Assembly (NCBI GenBank): GCA_016463705.1
Contig: JAEMQU010000001.1
Span: 39,986 to 103,985, forward strand
Length of the DNA: 64,000 bases
Source of the DNA: Opitutales bacterium
GTDB lineage: Bacteria; Verrucomicrobiota; Verrucomicrobiia; Opitutales; UBA953
Reading direction: 5' to 3'
The notes beneath the pieces were generated by a model that did not search any database, was not told where the DNA came from, and saw only the letters and a program-made list of their open reading frames with translations. Positions 55,569-59,445 of the stretch are shown here, piece by piece. Each line of letters opens with the position of its first letter. The stretch's first letter is position 1. The position numbers and the translations under genes are program-made.

Positions 55569-56828
55569 CTACATTTTCGCGATAATCGCGTCAGCAAACT
55601 CCGAGCACTTAATTTCCTTCGCACCTTCCATCTGTCGGGCGAAATCGTAAGTCACTCGGCCGCCACCAATCGCACCATTCAAACCTTTAAGAATGAGATC
55701 AGCCGCTTCGGTCCAACCCAGGTAGCGGAACATCATTTCGCCACTGAGCACAACGGAGCCAGGATTGACGACGTCCTTATCGGCATACTTCGGTGCCGTA
55801 CCGTGAGTCGCTTCAAAGATGGCATGTCCGGTGAGATAATTAATATTTCCACCAGGAGCGATACCGATGCCGCCCACTTGCGCAGCAAGGGCGTCGGAAA
55901 GATAATCGCCGTTAAGATTGAGGGTTGCGATAACGTCGAAGTCAGTCGGACGAGTCAGAATTTGTTGTAGGGTGATATCAGCAATCGCGTCTTTAATCAC
56001 GAGGCCAGCCCCGGGCTTACCTTCGGGAATTTTGCACCAAGGTCCGCCATCAATTTCTACGGCACCAAATTCATTTTTCGCCAAATCGTATCCCCATTTC
56101 ATGAAAGCCCCTTCGGTGTATTTCATGATATTACCTTTATGAACTAAGGTCAGAGATTTGCGCTTATTCTCGATGGCGTATTGAATCGCCGAACGGATTA
56201 AACGTTCAGAACCAGGCTTAGAAACGGGCTTAATCCCAAGGCCGACAGTCGCGGGTTGCTCTCCGCCAAAGCGGATCTTCTTAAACTCTTGGGGGAAGTT
56301 CGTCTTGATAAACTCCAAAGTTTTGAGCGCGATTTCCGAGCCCGCTTCAAAATCAATTCCGGCGTAAATATCTTCGGTGTTCTCGCGGAAAATTACCATG
56401 TCTACTTTACCAGGATTTTTTACAGGCGAAGGAACGCCGGTGAACCATTGCACTGGACGGAGACAAACGTAGAGATCCAATTGTTGGCGGAGCGCGACAT
56501 TAAGCGAACGAATGCCACCACCGGTCGGAGTGGTGAGTGGTCCTTTGATTCCGACGAGATAATCTCGGAAGGCCGTGAGGGTAGCTTCGGGCAACCAGTC
56601 GTTCGTTTTCTTGAAAGATTTTTCGCCTGCTAAAACTTCGAGCCATTCAATTTTACGTTTTCCGTGATAAGCTTTGGCTACGGCAGCGTCGAAGACACGA
56701 ACCGAGGCGCGCCAGATATCCGGACCCGTACCGTCACCTTCGATAAAAGGAATGATGGGGTGATCAGGTACATTAAGTTTGCCGTTCGTGATTGTGATAC
56801 GACCAGCGCTGGCGGAGGAAGGTGTCAT
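55569..56828 (-). CDS. icd: Isocitrate dehydrogenase (NADP-type)
   Basis: [57 protein letters not shown]. Confidence 0.95.
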
Positions 56829-56877
56829 GGATGGGGAGACTCAAACTTCCCTCTCGCCGCTTTTCAAGCCAACAGAA

Positions 56878-56901
56878 AAGGACCCCCTTACGAGGGTCCT
56901 T
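56878..56901 (-). terminator. Intrinsic terminator downstream of the tandem RHH gene
   Basis: AAGGACCC-CCTTACGA-GGGTCCTT followed by TTTT on minus strand. Confidence 0.6.
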
Positions 56902-56960
56902 GTTTTAACTGGTAATGAAACCAGTGCCATCCGCCTTAGCGACGGAGAGTCCGAGAAGAA

Positions 56961-57347
56961 TTATTTCTTCTTGGATTTGGCTTTTTTAGCTACTGATTTC
57001 TTAGCAGCTTTTTTCTTTTTTGCCATAGTTGTGATGTTCGTTGTTGGGTTAGAGGGCAGCGACTGAAGCGCCACCCTGACGATGCGCCCTACACTCACCC
57101 GGGCCTGACGAGCCTGACGGGTAATACGAGTGCGGAGCTCCGAGGGGACTCGGAAAGACACTTGGCGGGAGTTGATTGGTTCAACGTTCAAACGATTCTC
57201 AGGACAACTCTCTAAAGCATGCCTGATCACTTCGCTCAAATTAGACAAGCCGGCGCGTTGCTGAAAAGCGATTGCTTCAATGTGTAACTTCACAGGAAGG
57301 GACACGGTGATAAGACTTTCGCTGATGGTTTCGGTTCGGTTAGTCAC
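56961..57347 (-). CDS. Tandem ribbon-helix-helix protein with Lys/Ala-rich C-terminal tail
   Basis: Two RHH-like segments (LITVSLPVKLHIEAIAFQQRAGLSNLSEVIRHALE; RQVSFRVPSELRTRITRQARQARVSVGRIVRVALQ) plus MAKKKKAAKKSVAKKAKSKKK tail. Confidence 0.65.
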   Translation of the reverse strand: MTNRTETISESLITVSLPVKLHIEAIAFQQRAGLSNLSEVIRHALESCPENRLNVEPINSRQVSFRVPSELRTRITRQARQARVSVGRIVRVALQSLPSNPTTNITTMAKKKKAAKKSVAKKAKSKKK

Positions 57348-57363
57348 GTTGCGGTTAACTCTT

Positions 57364-57478
57364 AATGACGATTGATAGTCATTTATCCGCAGAGCGCAAG
57401 AGGAAATTCACTCAGTGATGTTAGTGAAAAATTCCTCACTCGTTTTTCGAAAAAATTCTGACCAAAAAACGAATCACT
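57364..57478. promoter_or_regulatory. Putative operator region with multiple TCACT/AGTGA half-sites and an AATGAC/GTCATT inverted repeat
   Basis: TCACT 57408, AGTGA 57414, AGTGA 57423, TCACT 57436, TCACT 57474; AATGAC 57364 / GTCATT 57378. Confidence 0.4.
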
Positions 57479-57549
57479 TGAGCAGAAATTTTCTCTGCGG
57501 ACACCCCAATGGTTGACCAATATTATTTTTAGAGTTAAATCATATAAAT

Positions 57550-59445
57550 ATGAGCGATGAACATCATGATGAGTGGAAAAAACTCGCAGTATTCGCCGTG
57601 ATAAGTGGTTTATTCGGACTTCTCGCGCTTCTCGTCAGTCATTCCTATCCGCCCGAAAATTCACTACACTGGATCTCCACATTATTACTCGCCCTCTCAT
57701 GTCTGGCTGGTGGATGGGATGCACTCATCGACGGTTGGGCATCACTGCGCGAAAAACGTGTCGATGTGCACACTTTGATGATCCTTGTTGCAGGTGGTTC
57801 ATGGATTATTGGTCACCCCGAAGAAGGTGCACTGCTGCTCTTTCTATTCTCCACGGCAGGGGCGATTGAACACTACGCAATGTTCCGCACCAGAGGGGCC
57901 ATTGATGCCCTCTTAGATCGCGCTCCCAAGCAGGCCCGCTTGATTGAAAGTGATGGTAAAGAAAATATTATTTCGGTCAGTGCACTGAAACCTGGGCATC
58001 AAATAATCGTCCTCCCTGGCGAGTTAGTTCCTGCCGATGGTCAGGTTGTATCGGGAGAAAGTTCGGTCGATGAAAGCACTCTAACGGGTGAAGCAAAACC
58101 GGTGGATAAAAAAACAGGCAGCTTAGTTTCCAGTGGTACCTTAAATAGTTGGGGACGGCTGGTTGTTTTAGTCACCAAGGCTGAAAAAGATAGTTCCCTG
58201 CAACGCATCATTACGCTGATCCGTGAAGCACAAGAAAGTAAAGCCCCGGCCCAGCGTGCCATTGATCGTTGGGGCGATATCTATGCTATCTTTACGCTCT
58301 CCGCCTCTCTCATTTTCTTTCTCTACCAATATTACGTCCTCCATAATCCCATCATGGGCGGAGAGACGTCGGCACTCTATCGTGCAATGACTCTCATGGT
58401 GGTCTTAAGCCCCTGCGCACTCGTCCTCTCGGTTCCATCCGCTATCTTAGCCGCCATCGCTGCAGGTGCTCGCCAAGGAATCTTATTTCGAGGTGGCGCT
58501 GCGGTTGAACGACTTTCCGGAGTGAATACTATCTGCTTTGATAAAACAGGAACGTTAACTTCAGGTGAACCTGTCGTCGCCTCGCTCGAAGTTTATCCGC
58601 CCGAAAATCGCAAAAAAACCCTGTCTGCATTGCTTTCTGTTGAGTCTAATTCGACGCACCCTTTTGCGGGTGGAATCCTTAAAGCGTGTCGGGCCGAGGG
58701 CGCACAATTACTTTCAGTCAACGGTCTCGCTAACTTCCCAGGCAAAGGAATTTCTGGAGAGATTGATGGAGTGACCTGGAAAATTGGCGGACGTGACTTC
58801 GTCGGCTGTGCCGCACTGCCTTCCACCAATACAGACAGCGGTGCCATTATTAGTGAAGTTTGGGCATCGGATGGCACATCCATCGCTCGCGTCACCTTGG
58901 TCGATGAAGTTCGCGAACAAAGCGCCGCCACCCTCTCCGCTCTCCACCAGTTAGGCATTCACACTATCATGCTTACCGGCGATCGCGAAGAGGCGGCTGC
59001 CGTGGCTGCAAAAAAAGTAGGGGTAGAGAAATTTGCAGCGGCACTCTCGCCCGAAGCAAAAATGCAAACGGTTCGAAAGATTTCATCGGAAGGACACATC
59101 GTCGCCATGGTCGGTGACGGCGTGAATGACGCCCCTAGCTTAGTCGCCGCCGATATCGCCATCGCGATGGGTAGCCGAGGAAGCGATGCCGCTCTCGAAT
59201 CCAGTGATGTCGTTCTGATGGACGATAAAATCGAGAAACTTCTAAATGCCATCGAACTGAGTAAGGCTGCGCGTACCGCCATTCGTATTAATATTATAAT
59301 CTCGGTCGGCGCCGCATTAACCATGGCCACCATTGTCATCTTCCAAGGAGCCACCTTATCCCTCGGCGTGATGGTTCATGAAGGCAGTACCGTTATCGTC
59401 TGTTTAAACGGGCTACGCTTATTGGCCCACCGCCCGAAGGCTTAG
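57550..59445 (+). CDS. P1B-type heavy-metal ATPase, P1B-4-like (Co2+/Zn2+/Fe2+ class)
   Basis: DKTGTLTSG phosphorylation site, LSPCALV (SPC) TM motif, HEGST motif, no N-terminal HMA domain. Confidence 0.88.
   Translation: MSDEHHDEWKKLAVFAVISGLFGLLALLVSHSYPPENSLHWISTLLLALSCLAGGWDALIDGWASLREKRVDVHTLMILVAGGSWIIGHPEEGALLLFLFSTAGAIEHYAMFRTRGAIDALLDRAPKQARLIESDGKENIISVSALKPGHQIIVLPGELVPADGQVVSGESSVDESTLTGEAKPVDKKTGSLVSSGTLNSWGRLVVLVTKAEKDSSLQRIITLIREAQESKAPAQRAIDRWGDIYAIFTLSASLIFFLYQYYVLHNPIMGGETSALYRAMTLMVVLSPCALVLSVPSAILAAIAAGARQGILFRGGAAVERLSGVNTICFDKTGTLTSGEPVVASLEVYPPENRKKTLSALLSVESNSTHPFAGGILKACRAEGAQLLSVNGLANFPGKGISGEIDGVTWKIGGRDFVGCAALPSTNTDSGAIISEVWASDGTSIARVTLVDEVREQSAATLSALHQLGIHTIMLTGDREEAAAVAAKKVGVEKFAAALSPEAKMQTVRKISSEGHIVAMVGDGVNDAPSLVAADIAIAMGSRGSDAALESSDVVLMDDKIEKLLNAIELSKAARTAIRINIIISVGAALTMATIVIFQGATLSLGVMVHEGSTVIVCLNGLRLLAHRPKA

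Follow-up and report, generated by a model that had tools for sequence, protein, structure and literature searches.

In the 64,000-nucleotide stretch of Opitutales DNA analyzed here (the window), a 128-aa ORF with a GTG start on the minus strand (56961..57347) encodes two consecutive ribbon–helix–helix (RHH) units followed by a Lys/Ala-rich tail, and we propose, with a probability of about 0.6, that this is one gene with two products: a TraY-like DNA reader carrying a histone H1-like clamp and, probably, the tail as a free peptide. The proposal draws on the architecture of the protein, its conservation, the context of an internal start codon, nucleotide constraint and a covarying hairpin, all established from sequence and structure prediction. 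For the further claim, that this is a conserved two-product chromatin locus in which a covarying intragenic RNA hairpin controls the internal start of the free H1-like tail, we would put the odds at about even. If true, the family would provide an order-specific candidate nucleoid protein of Verrucomicrobiota, built from a single-chain RHH reader and an H1-like clamp, as well as a testable bacterial chromatin gene with two products, nested starts and an RNA structure maintained inside coding sequence.

Conservation and genomic context

The preliminary description of this DNA reported a 128-aa ORF with two RHH-like units and a Lys/Ala tail, and this holds: the coordinates are exact, two AlphaFold2 (AF2) predictions contain both units, and homologues read across the order keep the arrangement. 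The ORF is not a chance one, since the architecture is kept in 53 of the 54 other same-genus genomes, as intact or contig-cut copies, and in many families of the order. Order-wide, 207 of 370 genomes gave a match at E <= 1e-5, with the closest matches in metagenome-assembled Opitutales/Opitutae genomes, several of them from fresh water. Searches of the class and phylum returned only members of the order, save five weak matches to the unit 2 portion in two further families of that class, and no match to the family was found in plasmid and phage collections.

Apart from copies truncated at the end of a contig, and from two separate matches that are weak and cover one unit, the tandem copies read across the order contain both units. 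The tail is 21 aa long in the window protein and ranges among relatives from a few residues (family f14; genus g7 of f3) to ~250 aa; several families, long- and short-tailed, share the same downstream aminotransferase gene, which supports the orthology of long- and short-tailed copies. A Lys/Ala-rich, disordered basic segment of the kind seen in H1-like proteins (Hc1/Hc2/AlgP) is present, and the relatives with long fused tails support the earlier view of it as H1/Hc1-like. The proposed survey of homologues bore out the conservation of both units within the order; the basic tail is mostly conserved as well, though a few homologues have no real tail.

The host genome is 1.47 Mb in size. On the same strand, the 3' neighbor of the tandem RHH gene is a 419-aa ORF that reads as icd, and the 5' neighbor is a divergent gene for a P-type ATPase, likewise named by reading its sequence. 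A sequence scan places an intrinsic-terminator-like site 3' of the gene (56878..56901, minus strand). The interval between the stop codon and this site (56903-56960) looks hairpin-capable by eye and is similar among same-genus relatives. An Rfam search gave matches far below gathering scores and nothing better. A scan of 56800-57560 for sigma-70-type promoters came up empty on the strand of the gene and so lends no support to an internal promoter for the tail.

Two RHH units in a single chain

Both units have the β-α-α form of the RHH (MetJ/Arc/CopG) superfamily, as judged from profiles and AF2. Unit 1 spans residues 10-47 (57207..57320, minus strand) and is placed by its AF2 strand and helices and by similarity of the family profile to ParD, NikR and CopG; unit 2 spans residues 60-95 (57063..57170, minus strand) and is placed by Pfam RHH_1, AF2 and invariant columns. 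In the window protein, RHH_1 matches unit 2 (residues 63-95, E = 6e-4, falling slightly short of the curated cut-off), and unit 1 goes unmatched by Pfam. RHH_1 does match each of the 16 family members tested, a diverse set, and the CopG_antitoxin profile also gave a weak match in that search of family members. Against solved RHH proteins, the family profile finds ParD, NikR and CopG with unit 1 and VapB26 and HP0222 with unit 2, all weakly (E 0.03-0.2). A phmmer search of the protein against PDB sequences returned no match.

Of two AF2 models, one was built from the single sequence and the other from five sequences, and both have the order β-α-α-β-α-α, with a strand at residues 10-18, helices at 19-32 and 37-47, a second strand at 60-68 and helices at 69-82 and 86-95; residues 100-128 are disordered or of low confidence in both. 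Confidence is moderate (mean pLDDT 64-68, pTM under 0.5). Both RHH units were predicted, so the outcome that would have told against the earlier reading, a fold with one unit or none, did not occur. In a Foldseek search with the single-sequence model, the top 11 PDB matches are chains E, F and G of the F relaxosome (TM as high as 0.56 by query, 0.67 by target), which we infer to be TraY because the complex has three TraY molecules and TraM is absent from one of the matching entries. The single-sequence model superposes on TraY with an rmsd of 2.2 Å over 90 columns; the five-sequence model, which has the higher pLDDT, fits the same chains more poorly (TM ~0.4, rmsd 6-7 Å), so that we are surer of there being two units than of how they pack. 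The two-unit architecture, taken by itself, is very probably correct, and these models, with TraY as the best structural match of the chain, lend support to the covalent pseudo-dimer suggested in the preliminary description.

Paired within one chain, the two units would make up an entire DNA reader of two strands, on the pattern of F TraY. The strands of the units differ (L12/T14/S16 in unit 1 vs Q62/S64/R66 in unit 2), and for that reason the reader would probably be asymmetric and favor nonpalindromic sites. The Q62-x-S64-x-R66 motif is invariant in 16 family members, and its three residues occupy strand positions expected to face DNA, which by sequence suggests a role in DNA reading. Residues 63-71 (alignment columns 65-73) also form a mid-gene stretch of low synonymous diversity (0.106), the third in the gene. 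The flexible Lys/Ala tail may add sequence-independent contact with DNA (or RNA) in the manner of H1/Hc1, so that reader and tail together could act in global regulation or as a nucleoid-associated protein, the kind of function already proposed in the preliminary description.

Several known proteins share parts of this design. Agrobacterium VirC2 resembles it in having a single-chain RHH-type fold. In F plasmid TraY, a single chain accommodates the entire RHH dimer fold (PMC12117103), and all elements of such a dimer are likewise predicted in the chain of the window protein; the window family differs in being chromosomal and order-wide, in its basic tail and in having no conjugation genes seen adjacent, and identity to TraY is 12-20%. 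CdbA of Myxococcus xanthus is an RHH protein proposed, in the text available, to be nucleoid-associated (PMC7156744); unlike the window protein, it has one RHH per chain, is tetrameric and binds c-di-GMP, and that text describes no H1-like tail. Chlamydial Hc2 (PMC2848022) and AlgP (PMC9239181) contain lysine-rich repetitive basic segments, with size variation reported for Hc2; in the accessible parts of these sources, the difference from the window family is that here the basic segment is attached to what is predicted to be a folded RHH reader in one chain. Among titles and abstracts on RHH proteins with lysine-rich tails and on H1-like proteins of Verrucomicrobiota, none describes the family, and no description of an internal-start tail product for such a protein was found in the searchable literature.

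A proposed start codon at the junction of units and tail

The Lys/Ala tail opens with an ATG of its own, which encodes residue 108 and lies at 57026, and the tail alone constitutes a proposed nested in-frame ORF, MAKKKKAAKKSVAKKAKSKKK (56961..57026, minus strand), suggested by start context, constraint, the junction Met and free-standing counterparts. Met occupies the junction in 53 of the order's 71 distinct long basic tails, compared with a Met frequency of 0.47% among core residues. In those 53 tails the residue after it is Pro in 27, Ala in 21, Val in 4 and Lys in 1, so that Ala or Pro accounts for 48. Families f8 and f6, genus g3 of f1 and many members of f14 lack the junction Met, and genus g2 of f1 has it without G depletion or a hairpin at that place.

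Starts in the host genome are marked by G depletion, and Shine–Dalgarno (SD) sites are hardly used. In most families, G is scarce in the 20 nt 5' of this codon (Wilcoxon test at the family level, p = 0.009), and in the window an A/C-rich, G-poor leader lies immediately 5' of the ATG (57027..57046, minus strand). Under a start-context model built on 303 kb of the host genome, the tail ATG scores 4.72 and outranks 99.7% of the 1167 internal Mets and 75% of the 192 starts from the same genome, though the amino-acid composition of the disordered linker could account for part of this score. Most members of the genus have AAGGA(7 nt)ATG, and a g4 relative has AAAGGAG; the window's own lineage is without the SD-like AAGGA of its relatives.

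The sequence leading up to this ATG is constrained at the nucleotide level (57027..57089, minus strand; residues 87-107, alignment columns 89-112). Among 34 distinct same-genus sequences, synonymous diversity over the ~20 codons before the ATG is 0.071 vs 0.434 in icd, where the lowest 20-codon window reaches 0.365; in the codons after the ATG it is 0.188, relaxed but still below icd. Within the segment lies an RNA hairpin, AGGGUGGCGC-UUCAG-UCGCUGCCCU (57053..57077, minus strand), identified by folding and by compensatory changes in three genera (g1, g4 and g5). Pairing holds in 88.2% of cells over 17 sequences and 13 cells are double-changed, compared with 5.0 in shuffles (0/500), and pairing falls to 37-64% when the partner is slid. 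Two stem positions keep G-U wobbles within the genus and are A-U or C-G in other genera, and the conserved wobbles argue for pairing at the RNA level. A g3 relative has neither the hairpin nor the junction Met. Other families show no consistent hairpin 5' of the tail, and the hairpin was rejected as an order-wide feature; it is consistent only in the window's family.

An internal start codon with initiation signals under selection, as expected of a nested in-frame gene, is present. The tail's own start codon, the constrained upstream hairpin and the free-standing counterparts described below point to a second product, and by sequence the tail is probably made separately from the same gene via the 57026 ATG. 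Ribosomes would initiate there, behind the G-poor leader and the conserved hairpin, to yield a free 21-aa basic peptide. The interpretation in the preliminary description is supported in part; it overlooked the tail's own ATG, the constrained hairpin and the free-standing counterparts.

Alternative explanations

It is conceivable, if doubtful, that only the full-length fusion is made, with the junction Met a relic of gene fusion and the constrained segment put to another use, such as slowing the ribosome to let the RHH part fold before the tail. No copy read has a stop codon between units and tail, so any translation of the RHH part carries on through the tail and yields the full-length protein, and in several families the tail is long but lacks a Met at the junction. 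Were this Met a relic, it ought to be lost from a linker that otherwise changes freely, yet most families keep it, followed by Ala or Pro; in addition, constraint peaks up to the ATG and relaxes beyond it, and the context of that ATG is start-like. The constrained segment and hairpin might instead constitute a DNA site, for example an intragenic operator for the gene's own protein, with the start-like features as by-products. RHH proteins often autoregulate their genes, the hairpin is also an imperfect DNA inverted repeat, and a second constrained block lies at the start codon. This block, near-invariant over ~45 nt in the genus by synonymous diversity and same-genus sequences, spans the GTG start and contains AACCG repeats (57318..57363, minus strand); by its sequence, it is possibly an autoregulatory site or a mark of start-region constraint. 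We consider the DNA-site explanation improbable, however, as the exchange of G-U for A-U or C-G in the stem preserves RNA pairing and not a DNA palindrome.

A role as a CopG/ParD-like antitoxin, or as an accessory factor of conjugation with no more than a resemblance to TraY, seems highly improbable. Weak profile matches to ParD, CopG and CopG_antitoxin and the TraY-like fold speak for such a role, and the neighbors speak against it: icd and a P-type ATPase gene in the window, and in other families the gene for an aminotransferase. A type II antitoxin of the CopG/ParD kind was rejected, with no small partner or toxin recognized beside the gene, either here or in the neighborhoods read by eye; an F TraY relaxosome factor was also rejected, given the chromosomal neighbors, the absence of a recognized relaxase and the lack of plasmid or phage matches.

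Free-standing tails and other KAK-rich proteins

Returning to the two-product reading, free KAK mini-genes, ORFs of 13-19 aa, occur in genera g51 and g80 of family f14. These encode MAKKKKAKKAGKKKKK, MAKKKKAAKKKKK and MAKKKAAKKATKKAGKKKK (loci L177, L219, L220 and L222), and each is directly followed by a strong terminator-like hairpin and T run. The strict MAKKKK mini-gene pattern was found in one genome only, and a looser pattern found more. Some mini-gene genomes also hold a tandem RHH gene, with a tail that lacks the junction Met; in two others, G135 and G229, the tandem RHH gene was not found. In genome G000, the looser KAK pattern picks out the tandem RHH gene of the window and, besides it, a single larger protein, at C59. 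The mini-genes are consistent with a useful free tail peptide, and with the window's lineage making its tail from a nested start.

KAK-rich segments were also seen in other settings. The larger protein from the same genome (L223, G000:C59) has a KAK-rich N-terminus (MPKKTPPKKPAAKK...) and a C-terminal part that by eye is of the DksA/TraR type. Two further proteins (L180 and L187) combine KAK-rich N-termini with a domain resembling, by eye, a carbohydrate-binding module, and C-terminal KAAKKAAKK tails are present on two proteins (L168 and L169) that by eye resemble topoisomerase I.
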